Source: Candidatus Rokuibacteriota bacterium
Lineage (GTDB): Bacteria > Methylomirabilota > Methylomirabilia > Rokubacteriales > CSP1-6
Length of the DNA stretch: 18,047 nt
NCBI GenBank assembly: GCA_016177555.1
Contig: JACOVB010000301.1
Span: 1 to 18,047, forward strand
Reading direction: 5' to 3'
Shown piece by piece: positions 3,793 to 17,759 of the stretch; positions within the stretch are counted from its first letter, which is position 1, and each line of letters begins with the position of its first letter. Under the pieces are notes generated by a model. That model worked only from the letters and a program-made list of their open reading frames with translations, was not told the origin of the DNA and did no database searches. A program made the position numbers and the translations under genes.

Positions 3793-4793
3793 AGATCGGC
3801 GCCGTCGCCATCGCTTCCTCCACGCGCCTGGCACCCATGGCGGGCATCACCAACGCCCCCTTCCGGCTGGTCGCGCGAGAGTGCGGCAGCGGGCTCACCA
3901 CCACGGAGGAGATGGACGCCGCCACGCTCCTCATGAACACTCCACATGCCGACGCCATCGCGGCCTACTACCCCGCCGAGCGCCCGCTGGCCATGCAGCT
4001 CCTGGGCAAGGACCCCGACATCCTCGTGCGCGCGGCCCGGCGCCTCGAGGGGCTCGGCGCCGACATCGTGGACCTGAACATGGGCTGCCCGATGCCGAAG
4101 ATCACCGCCAAGGGCAAGGGAGCGGCGCTCATGCGGGATGTGCCGGCGGCGGCGCGCATCCTGCGAGCGCTCCGCCGCGCGCTGGCGGTCCCGCTCACGA
4201 TCAAGATCCGCAGCGGCTGGGACGACGAGCATGTCAACGCCGTGGAGGTGGCGCGCATGGCCGAGGGCGAGGGGGTGGACGCCATCACCGTCCACCCGCG
4301 CACGCGCGCCCAGCGACACGCGGGCCAGGCGCCCTGGGCGATCATCGCCGAGGTCGCGGCCGCCGTCCGCATCCCGGTGACCGGCAACGGCGATGTGCGC
4401 TCGATGGCCGAGGCGCGCCGGATGATGGCCGAGACGGGCTGCCGCTCCGTCATGATCGGCCGCGGGGCGCTGGGGCGGCCATGGGTGTTCAGCGAGAGCT
4501 TCGAGGGGCTCCCGCCGGAGGCGCAGCGCGAGTACAAGGCGCGAGCCATCGCCCGGCACTGTGCGCTGATCCGCGAGCACTTCCGGGAGAAGTACGCGCT
4601 CGTGCAGATGCAGAAGCACCTGGCGTGGTACACGGAGGGGCTCGGCCATGCCAGCGACTGCCGCCGTCTGATCTTCGAGGCCCGCACGCCGGAGGAGGTG
4701 TGGGAGGTCTTCGAGCGCTACTGGCACGCCGCCCGTCCCGGTCCGGCCGATCAGCGGGCAGTCCCCGAGGATGCACCCCTCGCCGCTGGCTGA
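3789..4793 (+). CDS. tRNA-dihydrouridine synthase (Dus family, DusB-like)
   Basis: FMN- and NADPH-dependent enzyme that reduces specific uridines in tRNA to dihydrouridine. The 334-residue protein has the full N-terminal TIM-barrel signature: APMAGITNAPFR (residues 15-26), DLNMGCPMPKI with catalytic Cys100, TIKIRSGWD with Lys139, TVHPRTR with His169 and Arg171, and the phosphate-binding segments GNGDV and IGRGALGRPW. The helical tRNA-binding domain fills the last ~90 residues. The frame is open well upstream to 2979, but the GTG at 3789, which overlaps the nuclease stop, gives a normal family N-terminus; the extension is shadow sequence. The sensor kinase start codon lies inside its last codons (23-nt overlap). 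Specificity (DusA/B/C) is assigned by overall look only. Confidence 0.93.
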   Translation: MKIGAVAIASSTRLAPMAGITNAPFRLVARECGSGLTTTEEMDAATLLMNTPHADAIAAYYPAERPLAMQLLGKDPDILVRAARRLEGLGADIVDLNMGCPMPKITAKGKGAALMRDVPAAARILRALRRALAVPLTIKIRSGWDDEHVNAVEVARMAEGEGVDAITVHPRTRAQRHAGQAPWAIIAEVAAAVRIPVTGNGDVRSMAEARRMMAETGCRSVMIGRGALGRPWVFSESFEGLPPEAQREYKARAIARHCALIREHFREKYALVQMQKHLAWYTEGLGHASDCRRLIFEARTPEEVWEVFERYWHAARPGPADQRAVPEDAPLAAG

Positions 4794-6357
4794 CCCCGAG
4801 CCGAGTCCGCTCCGGAACGCCACAGGCGCCATGCGCCTGGGAGTCCGCCAGAAGCTCGTGCTGCTCAGCGTGGCGGTGCTGGTCGCCGTGTCCTTCGGGT
4901 TCACCGCCCTCAACTTCCGGCTGGCGCGCGGGTGGATCGAGGAGGACCTGAAGGAGCGCGCCATCGCATTCGCCCGGGAGGTCGCCGCGACCATCGGCGA
5001 TCGTCGGGAGTTCGAGAACGCCGAGCTGCTCGATGCGCAGATTCGCCAGATCCTGACCATCCGCCAGAACGTCACCCAGCTCGACGTGCTCGCCTTCCGC
5101 GCCGACGGAACCCACGTGGCCGCCGCAAGCCAGCCGGGCAGGCGGCTGCCCTTCACGCGCACGGATGTCGCGCAGGCCCGCCAGGGCCGGGCGGTCTCCC
5201 GGCTGGTCGAGGGTGACGGGGAGCGCTTCTGGGAAGTGATGGCTCCGATCACCCTCGGCGGGGCAGTGGCCGGCGCGGTGGCCGCCAAGTTCTCCCTGGA
5301 GCGGGCCGACCAGCTCGGGTCCCGGACGCGAGGGTGGACGCTCCTCCTCACGGCAGCCTCGGTGGTCGTGATGGGCTTGCTCATGAGCCTCGCCGTGTCC
5401 CAGGTCGTGGACCGGCCGATCCGGGTGTTCCTGGAGGCCATCAGCGCGCTCCGCGGCGGGGCCCCCCAGGCCCGCATCCGCCTGCAATCAACGGACGAGT
5501 TCGGAACGCTCGCGCGGCAGTTCAACGAGATGCTGGCCCGGATCGGCCAGTTCAACGACGAGCTGCAGACCCGGGTGAAGGAGGCCACCGCCGAGCTGGA
5601 CCAGCGGTACCAGGAGGTCCAGCGGCTCAACCGCCTCCTGTTCGACATGCAGCGCCGGCTCGGCCACGCCGAGCGGCTCGCCGTGTCCGGCCGGATCATG
5701 GCAGAGGTGGCTCACGAGGTGGGCACGCCGCTGCATTCGGTCACCGGGCACCTGGAGCTGTTGCGACAGGAGCTGTCGCCCCCGCTGGTCACCCCGGAGG
5801 TGCAGCGAAGGCTCGCGGTCGTCGAGACCCAGCTCGCCCGCGTGGCGGCGATCATCACCCAGCTCCTGGACATGACGCGAGGCCCCCGGGGCGAGCCGGC
5901 CCGTGTGGACCTCGGCCAGCTCGTGAGGGAGACGGCCGAGCTGGTGAGCCCGAGCATGGCCGCCGCAGGCGTCACCCTTCGCGTGACCACCGACCCCGGG
6001 TTGCCCGCGGTTTGCGGCTACGGCACACAGCTCGAGCAGGTGATCCTCAACCTCCTCACCAACGCCATGGACGTGACACCCCCCGGGGGGCGCGTGGAAA
6101 TCGGGACGTTCACGGGAGACCACAAGCAGGTCGTGCTGGAGGTCCGCGACACCGGAAGGGGCATCCCGGCCGCCGTCCAGGCTCGGATCTTCGAGCCCTT
6201 CTTCTCCACCAAGGAAGCGGGGCGGGGCACCGGCCTCGGGCTCTTCATCTCGGCGCAGATCGTCCGCGAGCACGGCGGCACCATCGACGTGTCCAGCGGC
6301 GCGGCAGGGGGGACGGTGTTCCGGGTCGTCGTCCCCGCCGGGGAGCCCGCCGCGTGA
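4771..6357 (+). CDS. Membrane sensor histidine kinase
   Basis: Sensor half of a two-component system. Layout of the 528 residues: TM1 at about 27-48, an extracytoplasmic sensor domain of about 140 residues (no family recognised), TM2 at about 188-211, HAMP at about 212-265, a coiled coil up to about 300, HisKA with phospho-acceptor His315 in AEVAHEVGTPLH, and HATPase_c with N-box NLLTNAMD (427-434), G1 DTGRGI (460-465) and G2 GTGLGL (486-491). It ends in a GTGA overlap with the response regulator, its obvious partner. The start is uncertain: ATG 4771 has GAGG directly abutting it and adds a Pro-rich 20-residue leader, while ATG 4831 (MRLGVRQKLVLLS) gives a more typical kinase N-terminus. The NtrB-like kinase pairs with an NtrC-type regulator, as is common. 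Confidence 0.94.
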   Translation: MHPSPLADPEPSPLRNATGAMRLGVRQKLVLLSVAVLVAVSFGFTALNFRLARGWIEEDLKERAIAFAREVAATIGDRREFENAELLDAQIRQILTIRQNVTQLDVLAFRADGTHVAAASQPGRRLPFTRTDVAQARQGRAVSRLVEGDGERFWEVMAPITLGGAVAGAVAAKFSLERADQLGSRTRGWTLLLTAASVVVMGLLMSLAVSQVVDRPIRVFLEAISALRGGAPQARIRLQSTDEFGTLARQFNEMLARIGQFNDELQTRVKEATAELDQRYQEVQRLNRLLFDMQRRLGHAERLAVSGRIMAEVAHEVGTPLHSVTGHLELLRQELSPPLVTPEVQRRLAVVETQLARVAAIITQLLDMTRGPRGEPARVDLGQLVRETAELVSPSMAAAGVTLRVTTDPGLPAVCGYGTQLEQVILNLLTNAMDVTPPGGRVEIGTFTGDHKQVVLEVRDTGRGIPAAVQARIFEPFFSTKEAGRGTGLGLFISAQIVREHGGTIDVSSGAAGGTVFRVVVPAGEPAA

Positions 6358-7721
6358 CGGCCGCGAGCACGCTGCTCATCGCCGACGACGATCCGGTGGC
6401 CCTGGCGCTCCTCGCCGAGGTCCTGAGCCGCGAGGGCTACCGGGTTCGCGCAGCCGCCAGCGGAGAGGAATGCCTGCGCGTGGCCGAGGCGGAGCCGGTG
6501 GACCTGGCCATCGTGGACCTCCGCATGCCTGGGCTGGACGGTCTGCAGGTGATGCGGGGGCTCGCGACCATCCAGCCGGGAGTGCCGGTGCTCGTGCTCA
6601 CCGCCTTCGTGACCATCGACACCGCCATCCAGGCCATCCGCGCCGGCGCCTACGACTACCTGTCCAAGCCCTTCCGGATGGAGGAGATGAAGGTCGTCGT
6701 CCGCCGCGCTCTCGAGGCCCGCCGGCTCGCCAGCGAGAACCGGCAGTACCGCCGGGAACTGGAGGATCGCTATGGCGTGCAGAACCTCCAGGGGCAGTCC
6801 CCTCAGATGGTGGAGGTCTACAAGCTCGTGGCCCGCGTGTCCGCCCTCGAGACCACGGTGCTCATCCAGGGCGAGACAGGGACCGGCAAGGAGCTGGTCG
6901 CCCGGGCCATCCACTACGCGAGCCCCAGGGCCGGGCGCCCCTTCGTCGTGGTGGACTGCACGGCGCTCCCGGAGGGCCTCTTCGAGTCGGAGCTGTTCGG
7001 CCACGAGCGAGGGGCGTTCACGGGGGCCCTCTCGACGCGGCGCGGCCTCCTCGAGACATCCGATGGCGGCACCTGCCTCCTCGACGAGATCGGGGACCTC
7101 GCCCCCACCCTGCAGGCGAAGCTCCTGCGGCTGCTCCAGGAGCGCGCCATCCGGCGGGTGGGCGGAAATGAGGTCTTGCCGGTGAACGTGCGGATCATTG
7201 CCGCGACCAACCGGGATCTCGGCAAGCGCGTCGCCGAGGGAGCCTTCCGCGAGGATCTCTACTACCGTCTGAACGTGGTGACCATCGTCCTCCCTCCGCT
7301 GCGTGAGCGGTCCCAGGATATCCCCCTCCTCGCCCAGCACTTCCTCGAGAAGTACGCACGCGCCGCCGGCAAGCCCACGAGGGGGTTCGCACCGGAGACC
7401 CTGGCCGTGCTGTCCGGATACCACTGGCCCGGCAACGTGCGCGAGCTGGAACATGCCGTCGAGCGAGCCGTGGCGCTGTCGTCGTCGGAAGTGCTCGTGC
7501 CCGGCGATCTGCCGGAGCTGCTGCGCCGGGGGCCGGACGGCGACTTGCGCCTGCCCACGAGCAGAATGACGCTCGAGGAGGTGAAGCAGTGGTACGTTGC
7601 GAAGGTGCTGGAGGAGGCCGGCGGGAACAAGGTGCGCGCTGCCGAGCTCCTCGGCATCGACCGCGGCACGCTCTACAGGATCCTCAGGCGGCACGCCAGC
7701 GAGGGGGACACCGAGGGATGA
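6354..7721 (+). CDS. NtrC-family sigma54-dependent response regulator
   Basis: Transcription activator that remodels the RNA polymerase-sigma54 closed complex when phosphorylated by the kinase encoded just before it. The 455-residue protein has three canonical parts: a receiver domain (about 5-120, acidic cluster DDD at 11-13, phospho-site Asp55, conserved Lys105 in SKPF), an AAA+ domain (about 145-385) with Walker A GETGTGKE (173-180), the sigma54-contact loop GAFTGA (220-225) and Walker B CLLDEIGD (241-248), and a Fis-type helix-turn-helix at about 410-447 (NKVRAAELLGIDRGTLYRIL). The GTG start overlaps the kinase stop by 4 nt; the longer upstream open frame is shadow. The intact GAFTGA means it must act at -24/-12 promoters; one is found upstream of the DUF1344 gene at 8829-8844. 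Confidence 0.96.
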   Translation: MTAASTLLIADDDPVALALLAEVLSREGYRVRAAASGEECLRVAEAEPVDLAIVDLRMPGLDGLQVMRGLATIQPGVPVLVLTAFVTIDTAIQAIRAGAYDYLSKPFRMEEMKVVVRRALEARRLASENRQYRRELEDRYGVQNLQGQSPQMVEVYKLVARVSALETTVLIQGETGTGKELVARAIHYASPRAGRPFVVVDCTALPEGLFESELFGHERGAFTGALSTRRGLLETSDGGTCLLDEIGDLAPTLQAKLLRLLQERAIRRVGGNEVLPVNVRIIAATNRDLGKRVAEGAFREDLYYRLNVVTIVLPPLRERSQDIPLLAQHFLEKYARAAGKPTRGFAPETLAVLSGYHWPGNVRELEHAVERAVALSSSEVLVPGDLPELLRRGPDGDLRLPTSRMTLEEVKQWYVAKVLEEAGGNKVRAAELLGIDRGTLYRILRRHASEGDTEG

Positions 7722-8449
7722 AGCGGGCAGCCCGCTGGCTCGCGCTCGCTCTGCTGATCTCCGGCTGTGCGTCCACGCCGGCAGGCCTGGAGCGCGGAGA
7801 GGTCATCCGGCGCATCCTCCCCTCCACGGTGCAGCTGCGCCTGGAGCGCCAGGGCGGCGTGCGCCGGGCCGCCTCCGGCGTCGTGCTGGCATCCGACCCC
7901 GCGGCGGGCCGGTCCTGGATCATCACTACCCGTCACTTCCTGGATCCGCCCGGGCCCCAGGACGTGTACGTCAGCAGCCCCGGACGGAAGGGGCGCACGA
8001 AGGCCGTGGTGGCCGCCGTGAGCCCGGACCTCGATCTGGCGGTGATTCAGGTGAGCGGACTGAGCCTCCCGCCCGTGAGGCTCAAGGAGACCGCGAGCCT
8101 CGGGGACGAGGTATGGGTCGTCGCCTTCCCCTGGGGACGCCGGCTCACCGTGGTCTCCGGCGTGGTCAGCCAGCTCGTGGCGGGCGAGGAGGAGCTGCCC
8201 GTGCAGGGGACGGTGCGGAGGGTCGACGCCTCCGTGAGCTACGGGGCGAGCGGGGGTGGGGTCTTCGACGTCGAGAACGGCGCGCTGATCGGCATCGTGG
8301 AGGGCTACCGCACGGCCAACGTTTCCTTCCCCGAGGCTCCCTCGCGGGTCGTGCCGGTGCCGGTGCCGGGCGAGACGACCGTCATCGCGACCCGGGCCAT
8401 CGTGCGGTTCCTGATCGCTTCGGGGCTCGAGGCCATCGTGCCCAGATGA
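7718..8449 (+). CDS. Trypsin-like serine protease lipoprotein
   Basis: Predicted envelope-anchored protease of the HtrA/trypsin-like (S1) fold. The 243-residue protein begins with a lipoprotein signal peptide, lipobox LISGC with lipidated Cys17. The catalytic triad can be placed: His73 (TTRHFL), Asp106 (SPDLDLAVI) and Ser178 (YGASGGGVFD, the GxSGG motif). There is no room for a PDZ domain, so it is a compact protease domain only, unlike DegP. The ATG overlaps the regulator stop (ATGA), so it is the last of the coupled chain nuclease, Dus, kinase, regulator, protease. Its place in a sigma54 two-component operon suggests a role in envelope sensing or signal processing; that is inference. The longer upstream frame (from 7589) is shadow. 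Confidence 0.9.
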   Translation: MKRAARWLALALLISGCASTPAGLERGEVIRRILPSTVQLRLERQGGVRRAASGVVLASDPAAGRSWIITTRHFLDPPGPQDVYVSSPGRKGRTKAVVAAVSPDLDLAVIQVSGLSLPPVRLKETASLGDEVWVVAFPWGRRLTVVSGVVSQLVAGEEELPVQGTVRRVDASVSYGASGGGVFDVENGALIGIVEGYRTANVSFPEAPSRVVPVPVPGETTVIATRAIVRFLIASGLEAIVPR

Positions 8450-8504: not shown

Positions 8505-8759
8505 CTACTCGGAGATCTGGATTCCCGTCACGACCTTCTGTCCGTCGCGCTCCTCGTAGGACGCCCTCACCGAGACACCTTCCTTCAGCCCCTCGGTGGG
8601 GAGCCCCTCGGCCAGCCGGAGCTGGGTGCCGTCCTCGAGGACGAACATGCGCTCGGCGACGTCGACCTTCTGGATCTTTCCGGAGATCTCCTCGGCCGCG
8701 GCCATGCCGACACCGAGGCCCAGCAGCACAGCCAGTGCCAACCCCATCACCTTCTTCAT
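8505..8759 (-). CDS. Small exported DUF1344-type protein
   Basis: An 84-residue periplasmic protein of unknown function. A clean signal peptide (residues 1-22, KK followed by a hydrophobic run ending MAAA) precedes a short beta-rich domain: GKIQKVDVAERMFVLEDGTQL, then LKEGVSVRASYEERDGQKVV. This resembles the DUF1344 family of small exported proteins, recognised from the pattern, not a search. AGGAGG on the minus strand gives a strong ribosome site 7 nt before the ATG. It converges on the protease gene across a shared hairpin. Upstream it has a sigma54 -24/-12 promoter, so it is the best candidate target of the NtrC-family regulator encoded next door. Confidence 0.85.
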   Translation of the reverse strand: MKKVMGLALAVLLGLGVGMAAAEEISGKIQKVDVAERMFVLEDGTQLRLAEGLPTEGLKEGVSVRASYEERDGQKVVTGIQISE

Positions 8760-8828
8760 GTGAACTTCCTCCTTGCTTCGCGGTGTGTGTGTGGACTGCC
8801 ATCGACGTCACGGTCAACCGCTATCCGG

Positions 8829-8844
8829 AGCAATCGGGGTGCCA
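8829..8844 (-). promoter_or_regulatory. Sigma54 (-24/-12) promoter for the DUF1344 gene
   Basis: The minus strand reads TGGCACCCCGATTGCT. Against the sigma54 consensus TGGCACG-N4-TTGC-A/T only the seventh base differs, and the invariant GG and GC are separated by exactly 10 nt. Transcription would begin near 8818, giving a leader of about 60 nt with a strong Shine-Dalgarno before the ATG at 8759. Confidence 0.8.
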
Positions 8845-8939
8845 GCCGCACAGCGCGCGTGGCCGCCAGGGAATTCAGGCGCTTCGCGCCTCTGGGGTTC
8901 CACGGATCGAGGGGCAGAGTGTGGTAGACCGGATCAGCG

Positions 8940-8956
8940 TGTGGCGCATCGCCACA
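8940..8956. promoter_or_regulatory. Palindrome at activator-site distance upstream of the sigma54 promoter
   Basis: TGTGGCG-CAT-CGCCACA, a perfect 7-bp inverted repeat with a 3-bp centre. It is centred about 105 bp upstream of the -24 element and about 130 bp upstream of the expected start, where NtrC-type activators usually bind. A further TGTGG half-site lies at 8920-8924. Binding by the neighbouring regulator is inferred. Confidence 0.55.
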
Positions 8957-8968
8957 TCGCGGGCCCGG

Positions 8969-8980
8969 CAGGCCGGCCTG
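8969..8980. repeat. 12-bp perfect palindrome
   Basis: CAGGCCGGCCTG lies between the upstream palindrome at 8940-8956 and the stop of the DSD1-like gene at 8994. It could be part of that gene's terminator, a second protein-binding site, or chance in GC-rich DNA. Confidence 0.35.
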
Positions 8981-8993
8981 GAGTCGACGACGG

Positions 8994-10094
8994 CTACTGC
9001 GAGCGGCCGCGGGCCGAGATCTCCCACACCGCCTCGACCCTGTCCCCCCGCATGGCGTGAATGCGGTCGTAGAGGTTGATCGTCGGATCGCAGTGAGGTG
9101 GGAAGAACTCGAGGAGATCGCCGAGCCGCGGCGCCCGGTCCTGGTCCGCGATGGTGAGCCGCCCGTGCTCGTCGCCTGCCCAGGAGTACGCGAGCCCCGG
9201 GCACTCGACGGCCTCGGGGGGAAAGGGCTTGTCGGTGGAGAAGGCCTTGAAACCCGCGTCCACGATGGCCAGCTCCGCGCTCGGCCGGCTCACCACCGTG
9301 GCGAGCACGGTGAGCGCCATCTCGAAGCTGTCGTAGACCTTCCCGCCGCGGCTGCCGATCCGCCGGTAGTCCAGATCCATCACGCAGTATGAGCCCGCTT
9401 GCAGCTCCGTCAGCCCTGGCAGCTCCACGTCGATGTCGAAGCTGCCGCTGGAGCCCCCGCTGACGATCTCCACGGGCAGGCCCTGCTTCTCGAAGAGGGC
9501 GCGCGTCCGCATCAACCTGCGCATCCACTTGAGCGAGGCGCGCCGCCGCGACTCCCAGCCCACCACGTGGGCGCAGTGCCCGGCATAGCCCTGCAGCCCC
9601 CGCAGATTGAGCGCCCGCTCGGTGGTGACGAGACGCCCGAGGTCGAGCGCCGGCTCGCCGTCCTCGACGCCCGTCCGCCGCCCGCCCACCTCCACGTCCA
9701 CCAGCACGTTGAGCACGCGCCCCGCGCGCGCCATGGCCTGTCCCAGCTCGCGCACGTTGTCCGGGTGGTCCACGACGACCATGGTCTCGGGCTGGCGCTC
9801 GAGCACCCGCAGCAGCCGGCCGACCTTCTCCGCCCCCACCACTTCCGTGGTGATGAGGAGATTGCGGACGCCGGCGGCGGCCATCACCTCGGCCTCGCCC
9901 ACCTTCGCGACGCACACCCCCACCGCGCCCGCGGCCACCTGCCGCCGGGCGATCTCGGGACACCTGTGCGTCTTGGCGTGGGGGCGGAGCCGCTTGCCGG
10001 CGGCCTTCACGTGCGCCGCCATCTTCTGGACGTTGCGCTCGAAGCGGTCGAGGTCGAGAAGGAGCGCAGGCGTCGGGAGGTCGGCTCGAGTCAT
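8994..10094 (-). CDS. D-threonine aldolase / D-serine dehydratase-like PLP enzyme (DSD1 family)
   Basis: PLP- and metal-dependent enzyme of the alanine racemase-like fold III that cleaves D-3-hydroxy amino acids: D-threonine aldolase, D-serine dehydratase or a 3-hydroxy-D-aspartate relative. The 366-residue protein begins MTRADLPTPALLLDLD. The Schiff-base lysine is K41 in RPHAKTH, the TIM-barrel domain runs to about residue 240, and the C-terminal beta domain carries the metal-binding pair His334/Cys335 region in FPPHCDPTINLYD, characteristic of the D-serine dehydratase/D-threonine aldolase group rather than alanine racemase. ATG 10094 is chosen because it matches the family N-terminus; the frame stays open to 10214 but that part looks non-coding. 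No good ribosome site is visible. The exact substrate cannot be told from sequence. Confidence 0.9.
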   Translation of the reverse strand: MTRADLPTPALLLDLDRFERNVQKMAAHVKAAGKRLRPHAKTHRCPEIARRQVAAGAVGVCVAKVGEAEVMAAAGVRNLLITTEVVGAEKVGRLLRVLERQPETMVVVDHPDNVRELGQAMARAGRVLNVLVDVEVGGRRTGVEDGEPALDLGRLVTTERALNLRGLQGYAGHCAHVVGWESRRRASLKWMRRLMRTRALFEKQGLPVEIVSGGSSGSFDIDVELPGLTELQAGSYCVMDLDYRRIGSRGGKVYDSFEMALTVLATVVSRPSAELAIVDAGFKAFSTDKPFPPEAVECPGLAYSWAGDEHGRLTIADQDRAPRLGDLLEFFPPHCDPTINLYDRIHAMRGDRVEAVWEISARGRSQ

Positions 10095-10382
10095 GGCGCG
10101 GCGAGGATAGCACAGGCGCGCACCATCATCCCTACCGCTCGGGAGAAGTCCGGCGTCGGGGTTGCCCGTGCGCAAGATCTCCGATTGACGCCGCCCCGGG
10201 CCTGGCCTCATCATGTGGGCTCGTCGCTCATGAGCGTCCGATGGCTGAGGCCGTCACGCCCTCCCGGACACCCTCGAGGCCTTCGTCGCGGAGCATCGGC
10301 GCTGTGAGGGGCCGGGGCGCGGCTGCGGCGCAGGGCGCGAGAGGCGTGTCTCGGCGTGGGGACTGCGACGACAGGGGGCAGG
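10095..10382. other. Divergent intergenic region
   Basis: 288 bp between the DSD1-like gene (minus) and the first exported protein (+). On the minus strand TATCCT ends about 12 nt before the ATG and could be a weak -10. I see no RNA gene, repeat array or convincing -35. Confidence 0.4.
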
Positions 10383-17398: not shown

Positions 17399-17674
17399 TT
17401 AGGCAGAGATGGCCTGACTCACGGTCTCCGAGGACAGCAGGGTCGGCGCTCGCCACTCGTCATTGACCCGCCGATAACCGCACTCTTCCAGGACCTCGGC
17501 CAGTGTGCCGTGAGCGGAGGCAGTCTTGAGAAAGAGCGCCACGGCTTCCGAGAGATTCCGACGAGCGTCCTCAGGAGTCGTCCCGCAGCTCAGGACGTCA
17601 AGGGGTATGGCCCGCGCCACATACGACGCGTCCTCCCGCCAAACCTGCACCGTATGCTCGATCCTGATGGTCAT
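17399..17674 (-). CDS. hicB: HicB-type antitoxin
   Basis: Antitoxin that binds and blocks HicA. The 91-residue protein has the HicB partial RNase H-like fold: IEHTVQVWREDASYVARAIP, then DVLSCGTTPEDARRNLSEAV and LAEVLEECGY. ATG 17674 is preferred because GGAGGGATC sits directly before it; an in-frame upstream codon at 17692 would place that site inside the gene. There is no room for a C-terminal helix-turn-helix or ribbon-helix-helix, so this is a short HicB without an obvious DNA-binding domain, and autoregulation is uncertain. It is followed after 12 nt by hicA. Confidence 0.87.
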   Translation of the reverse strand: MTIRIEHTVQVWREDASYVARAIPLDVLSCGTTPEDARRNLSEAVALFLKTASAHGTLAEVLEECGYRRVNDEWRAPTLLSSETVSQAISA

Positions 17675-17759
17675 GATCCCTCCACTGGCCAAAACCGCAA
17701 CCGAGTGCTGCCCATCTCCGTCGCTCTGACTTTATCACGAGCCTCGTTCGCCCAAAACG

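Follow-up and report, generated by a model that had tools for sequence, protein, structure and literature searches.

A predicted two-component sigma54 switch for a small exported DUF1344 protein in Rokubacteria

The window analysed here (the whole 18,047-nucleotide stretch of Rokubacteria DNA) very probably encodes a dedicated two-component sigma54 switch, in which a Cache-domain kinase and an NtrC-type activator control a small periplasmic OB-fold protein of the family DUF1344. The kinase and activator appear to exist mainly to turn on this one adjacent small exported gene. The predicted action of the activator on a palindrome and a sigma54 promoter before the DUF1344 gene is strongly supported, because of conservation, synteny, a within-genome control and two genomes with another exported target. 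DUF1344, a family of unknown function, gains in this way a candidate regulator, operator motif and promoter, and its function becomes testable via what activates the switch.

NtrC-type activators are phosphorylated, bind DNA as dimers, oligomerize and use ATP to drive the opening of sigma54 polymerase. In the mechanism we propose, the membrane kinase, with its one periplasmic Cache domain, would sense an envelope or periplasmic signal and phosphorylate the co-encoded NtrC-type regulator. The regulator would bind TGTGGCRNNNYGCCACR operators, often in tandem, and form an ATPase oligomer that would activate sigma54 polymerase at TGGCAC-N5-TTGC, so that the small secreted OB-fold DUF1344 protein would be made. 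A trypsin-like lipoprotein protease, encoded in the regulator operon at most loci, probably acts in the same compartment. A preliminary description of this DNA had proposed an envelope-signalling module; conservation, synteny and controls uphold its regulatory core, while the word 'envelope' is suggested by how the sensor is placed in the membrane, by the export of the product and by the analogy with Zra.

The operon and its convergent target

The kinase gene (4771–6357, plus strand) encodes a transmembrane segment, a periplasmic single Cache domain (sCache_3_2), a second transmembrane segment, and HAMP, HisKA and HATPase_c domains (domains by Pfam, transmembrane segments from the sequence). 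An AF2 model of its sensor resembles the sensor domains of CitA, DcuS, KinD and WalK. The regulator gene (6354–7721, plus strand), which probably starts at a GTG, encodes the predicted operator-binding activator; with its receiver, sigma54 AAA+ and HTH_8 domains (Pfam), a GAFTGA motif and a Walker A motif, it belongs to the NtrC-type (group I) enhancer-binding response regulators, and its orthologues align at 64–93% identity. The third gene (7718–8449, plus strand) encodes a trypsin-like serine protease (PF13365) with the lipobox LISGC, read from the sequence. Its His73, Asp106 and Ser178 are invariant in 19 of 19 aligned homologues and are taken as the putative catalytic triad. The protease is not of the DegS/DegP HtrA type, scoring 43.4 bits against a required 416.2 (TIGR02037) and 35.3 against 423 (TIGR02038). 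Kinase, sigma54 activator and protease thus share one operon convergent to the DUF1344 gene, much as the preliminary description had read it, and start and stop codons overlap (regulator start at about 6354, protease start at 7718), which suggests that the genes may be translationally coupled. That description had also made the anchored protease a member of the module. It is a frequent, not an obligatory, partner: there is no protease match beside the loci L094, L096 and L208, and protease–DUF1344 pairs without the kinase–regulator system occur at L110, L111, L114 and L117.

The controlled gene (8505–8759, minus strand) encodes an 84-aa protein, with a signal peptide by inspection, that scores 37.1 bits against the PF07076 gathering cut-off of 23.1 and matches no other Pfam family. 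An AF2 model of this protein is an all-beta, five-stranded OB barrel of the CusF/PilY2-like kind, and a fold search with the model returns PilY2 (PDB 3tdq) and the periplasmic OB-fold proteins CusF/SilF, at 10–20% identity over the aligned part. Other OB folds come close in score (RecO 9.3, SSB 9.2), which makes this a match to a common fold; a DUF1344 profile run against the sequences of solved structures gave a best E-value of 0.16. Metal ligands of the CusF type are His, Met-x-Met and Trp. In the window protein, His, Cys, Trp and the MxM motif are all absent and a single Met follows the predicted signal peptide; we therefore reject a CusF-like metal chaperone for it.

Upstream of the DUF1344 gene lie a ribosome-binding region (AGCAAGGAGGAAGTTCAC, 8760–8777, minus strand, assigned from sequence) and a sigma54 -24/-12 element (TGGCACCCCGATTGCT, 8829–8844, minus strand), identified by consensus match and conservation. 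The element reads TGGCAC-CCCGA-TTGC-T on the minus strand from 8844 to 8829, starts 85 bp from the ATG and agrees with 11 of 12 consensus positions, including the GG-N10-GC core of TGGCAC-N5-TTGC. The near-perfect element of the preliminary description is therefore there, and so is its singularity: this is the top sigma54 site of the window, and the next three score 10, each without TTGC. In G001, the nearest genome examined, the strict pattern TGGCACN5TTGCW has 27 matches against none in a reversed control, and a sigma54 gene (rpoN, PF04552 above cut-off) is present in all six genomes tested, G001 among them. GAATTC (8871–8876, minus strand), some 30 bp farther upstream than the -24 element, forms an A/T patch that recurs in relatives. 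At each of three positions about 27–29 bp upstream of -24, A or T stands in 15–17 of 20 non-redundant promoters; the patch, which spans about 27–32 bp upstream in regulator-linked promoters, is a possible bending or accessory site.

Operators and their conservation in relatives

The perfect palindrome that had been noted upstream of the sigma54 element, TGTGGCG-N3-CGCCACA, is found at 8940–8956 on the minus strand (TGTGGCGATGCGCCACA), with 95 bp between its edge and that of the -24 element. We predict it to be the primary operator, an upstream activating sequence conserved across relatives. Considered alone, the palindrome could be a chance event: the window holds 22 perfect palindromes with 7-bp arms and spacers of 0–6, where shuffles give 23.4, and among shuffled intergenic regions of 234 bp, 8.5% contain one with a spacer of ≤ 3. 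Since the palindrome alone is not improbable, the case for an operator rests on conservation, and it is the conserved place in relatives that opposes a chance origin. TGTGGC-N5-GCCACA occurs once in G001. A second, degenerate operator (TGATCCGGTCTACCACA, 8920–8936, minus strand), absent from the preliminary description, has four mismatches. It is spaced 20 bp from the primary operator, and two sister species retain its 3' half-site.

Across 24 promoters, 36 sites with ≤ 3 mismatches (31 of them distinct) yield the consensus TGTGGCRNNNYGCCACR. Two operators, each with ≤ 3 mismatches, stand about 20 bp apart in 12 of these promoters. The number rises to 19, at a spacing of 18–23 bp, if the second operator is allowed four mismatches (no chance rate was computed for 4-mismatch sites), and five promoters lack a second operator even then. 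Measured from the -24 element, tandem operators typically have their starts at about 111 and 91 bp and their centres at about 103 and 83 bp upstream, the arrangement that two regulator dimers contributing to a single oligomer would be expected to show.

Within the GTDB family, DUF1344 occurs in 36 of 57 genomes (in the phylum, 41 of 95 by profile at a stricter threshold), and regulator orthologues number 22 genes in 21 of the 57 genomes and 11 of 24 genera (E ≤ 7.1e-176, with nothing next down to 1e-140). Kinase, regulator and DUF1344 remain neighbours across many genera of Rokubacteria and in three genomes from beyond the family. The DUF1344 gene may be convergent, co-directional or divergent there, and the block that also includes the protease is kept with DUF1344 in varying orientation. 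Regulator-carrying genomes often hold further DUF1344 genes. Each DUF1344 gene was scored for TGTGGC-N5-GCCACA with ≤ 2 mismatches starting 70–130 bp upstream of a sigma54 element, and was called regulator-adjacent when it lay within 7 kb of a regulator orthologue; L082, a near-identical relative, stands in for the window, and L120_19879, L211_85 and L215_405 are left out for missing upstream sequence.

Operator and sigma54 element together precede 19 of the 23 regulator-adjacent genes, all at a spacing of 88–112 bp, whereas they precede four of the 27 other DUF1344 genes, all four in regulator-carrying genomes (Fisher p = 1.5e-6, the test ignoring relatedness). First-order shuffled sequence reaches ≤ 2 mismatches in 0.4% of 4,400 trials. 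Conservation of both the -24/-12 element and the palindrome at related loci, which the preliminary description had named as a check on its proposal, is thus what we observe. The 27 other genes divide into those on contigs ending before the regulator (three of three with the pair), those non-adjacent in regulator-carrying genomes (one of 13), and those from genomes without a detected regulator (none of 11; ten of 11 genomes in this class were searched whole, and the eleventh, G085, by a 6.6-kb contig only).

The exceptions on both sides are few. The four genes with an operator among the 27 others are L087, two divergent genes at L093, and L100. L087 and the L093 genes sit on broken contigs of G024 and G032, where the regulator lies at the end of another contig, and they were counted as lacking the regulator because the contigs end; L100, in the regulator-carrying genome G018, is a possible second target. 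The four regulator-adjacent misses are L089 (three mismatches), L090 (a half-site only), L109_3902, which comes second in a tandem pair of genes with the operator at the first, and L212_9230, the second gene of an operon whose first gene is preceded by the operator. On a DUF1344 tree, operator presence needs nine changes against a shuffled mean of 17.3, the tree having few columns and 22 of 49 inner branches open. Operator presence is thus clustered, as descent predicts, but does not form a single clade. In G061, from another family of the class, a regulator 52% identical to that of the window adjoins an exact operator whose start is 113 bp from a sigma54 element (TGGCACGAGAGATGCT), and the two precede a receiver-like gene and then DUF1344.

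At the thresholds used, operator and sigma54 element are both missing from the protease–DUF1344 pairs at L110, L111, L114 and L117, and eight other such pairs with a more distant protease (L102, L106, L107, L108, L118, L209, L211 and L214) have sigma54-like elements, the operator being absent. L106, L107, L108 and L214 form a second protease–DUF1344 group, with a protease about 37% identical and a GGGCACG-N4-TTGC sigma54-like element; L106–L108 share a different, TAAGASTTACCGGCATGTT-like upstream sequence, and this group is perhaps under another activator. Protease relatives mostly outside Rokubacteria (L138–L158) lack an operator–sigma54 pair at 19 of 21 loci. We rejected the same regulation for the non-Rokubacteria relatives, as L155 is Rokubacteria and the pair at L157 (Methylococcaceae), 6 kb from the protease, is judged to be chance. 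The Anaeromyxobacter loci L139–L142 have protease relatives (37–39%) about 2.4–3.9 kb from an NtrC-type regulator (46–47%), with no DUF1344 match and no operator–sigma54 pair.

Regulon size and competing readings

A scan of the 57 genomes for palindrome and -24/-12 pairs, another check that had been suggested, agrees with the proposed link. The pattern GTGGCN5GCCAC-N72-100-YGGCN7TTGC has 14 matches against one in a reversed control, and 11 of the 14 (10 genes) are DUF1344 promoters; those in G016:C155 (a probable membrane protein gene) and G051:C39 have nothing more in their favour and were set aside. Bare exact operators number 16 against 14 in the reversed control; because these counts are barely above the control, the signal lies in the location of the sites, seven of the 16 being upstream of DUF1344 and one upstream of another exported gene. 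Of the 27 strict sigma54 sites in G001, only that of DUF1344 has an operator with ≤ 1 mismatch within 250 bp upstream, which argues against a wider regulon there. The regulon would therefore be close to a one-target switch.

Two genomes, G009 and G010, have the kinase and regulator without an adjacent DUF1344 (the gene is elsewhere in G009, and none was found in G010). In both, an operator with one and two mismatches, respectively, and a weaker sigma54 element (9 of 12) precede a divergent small exported gene. In G030, the operator ahead of its relative is exact and the sigma54 element agrees with 10 of 12 positions; this gene, the remaining one of the 14 pattern matches, is a credible operator target, and a regulator orthologue was not found in this 82%-complete genome. 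These genes (L205:6209–6493, minus strand; L206; L230, which is G030:C529) encode small exported proteins starting FQCPK(L/I) after the signal peptide. No Pfam family matches these proteins above cut-off, and FQCPK genes occur in 55 of 57 genomes, often in several copies; in G008, a further copy immediately follows DUF1344. The operator stands upstream of three of the 11 scored copies (G009, G010 and G030), these 11 of 30 loci being the ones that passed the search for motif and start codon. Because the operator fronts another exported gene in G009 and G010, without an adjacent DUF1344, the motif probably belongs to the regulator. This suggests that activator–operator pairs can persist when the exported effector under their control is replaced.

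Could the palindrome instead have nothing to do with sigma54 and be an RNA feature, such as a terminator or processing hairpin at the end of the aldolase/dehydratase-like gene upstream? The palindrome follows the stop codon of that gene by 37 bp, a 7-bp stem is possible, and similar palindromes are as common in the window as shuffling predicts. However, no terminator-like site is found in 8700–9050, which led us to discard a terminator, and no Rfam match for a structured RNA is found in the window. Moreover, the arms are conserved as sequence: across the 31 distinct sites, one of 43 departures from the consensus pairs is still complementary, in a test limited by the choice of sites by mismatch count. 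The distance from site to -24 is also kept where the upstream gene is the protease (L099, L101 and L105) or a divergent kinase (L094), and the operator is often tandem. We regard this reading as very improbable indeed. Somewhat less remote, although still unlikely, is that a different sigma54 activator encoded elsewhere in the genome binds the palindrome, the adjacent system controlling something else. The G030 operator and sigma54 element, with no regulator orthologue detected, would fit this, and other such regulators probably exist (41–190 unfiltered candidates per genome); yet the operator tracks the orthologues of this regulator across genera, even where DUF1344 is not adjacent (G009 and G010), and precedes none of the 11 DUF1344 genes from genomes where no regulator was found.

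A third reading, which we hold to be possible though not favoured, accepts the link and makes the module metabolic: a CitA/DcuS-like Cache domain would sense a small metabolite, and DUF1344 would handle a ligand or metal. Some of the CitA, DcuS and KinD domains that the sensor model resembles were solved with citrate or pyruvate, the DUF1344 fold matches CusF, and HMGL-like and acyl-CoA dehydrogenase genes are among the window neighbours. Against this, WalK sensor domains match about equally well, the window DUF1344 lacks the His, Cys and MxM motif noted above, and the metabolic neighbours are not kept with the module: L082 alone has HMGL, and Dus is confined to L082 and L083. A more specific form of the preferred two-component switch can be offered only tentatively: a Zra-like, single-output envelope circuit assembled from unrelated parts, with a swappable exported effector and a surface-anchored serine protease, encoded with the regulator, that trims or removes it, closing a feedback loop. 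The effector in that form would be OB-fold DUF1344 in most genera and the FQCPK protein in others.

Known systems and neighbouring genes

ZraP is a helical zinc-binding chaperone. The target in the window is instead the OB-fold DUF1344 (PF07076), and, unlike in ZraPSR, a lipoprotein protease is usually co-encoded and the DUF1344 gene of the window is convergent. Nor are the proteins ZraPSR members, the regulator scoring 403.1 bits against the ZraR equivalog cut-off of 760 and the kinase 137.6 against 479 for ZraS. Nevertheless, as far as extracts of the published accounts describe it, ZraPSR of Escherichia coli and Salmonella is similar in combining a membrane kinase, an NtrC-type regulator, sigma54 promoters, an adjacent small periplasmic protein and a very small regulon: according to those extracts, ZraR controls the divergent sigma54 promoters of zraSR and zraP (PMC4987338), and ChIP-exo found mgtA as its sole further direct target (PMC7657598). 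The preliminary description had called the module previously unnamed; ZraPSR is an established example of its general kind, an NtrC-type two-component system that has a single small periplasmic target.

AtoS–AtoC and NtrB–NtrC share the domain architecture, and AtoC and AtoS are the best NCBIfam matches, at scores below the equivalog cut-offs (489.7 against 714 bits and 216 against 646, respectively); unlike in these systems, the target has no known connection with acetoacetate or nitrogen metabolism. Desulfovibrio vulgaris offers a further parallel: the extracts of one study report sigma54 activator regulons in which binding motifs were reconstructed ahead of conserved sigma54 promoters, in many cases close to the gene for the regulator (PMC4641369). 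The strings TGTGGC and GCCACA are absent from the main text of that study, its figure logos lying outside a text search, and the operator motif as text has no match in the literature, where motifs shown only as logos would escape. In the portions of articles covered, mentions of DUF1344 are incidental only. Open-access literature yielded nothing on sigma54 control in Rokubacteria and, by title and the start of the abstract, nothing on a particular two-component system.

Several neighbouring genes and loci deserve mention. The upstream neighbour of DUF1344 (8994–10214, minus strand) encodes an Alanine-racemase-N/D-serine dehydratase-like protein whose best NCBIfam match is BhcC (3-hydroxy-D-aspartate aldolase), at 303.1 bits against a cut-off of 690. 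Its homologue adjoins DUF1344 within the same genus, and one distant match (34%) lies 5 kb away in L119. Interrupted-looking matches (L097, L210/L155 and G008:C231) include a regulator in two pieces in G018, a protease in two pieces in G095 and, in G008, a single TGA inside the regulator match, which may stand only at the end of that match; these reflect either real decay or assembly error. The DUF1344 genes of L086 (G047:C48) and L088 (G038:C63) are near-identical, as are the regions upstream of them, and the two genomes are assigned to separate genera; this reflects either recent transfer or a binning error. Further along, the window contains a DDE transposase gene (PF01609; 12783–14612, minus strand) and a gene with a HicA-type toxin domain (PF07927; 17156–17386, minus strand), beside which 17399–17692 has a weak, below cut-off match to DUF7387.
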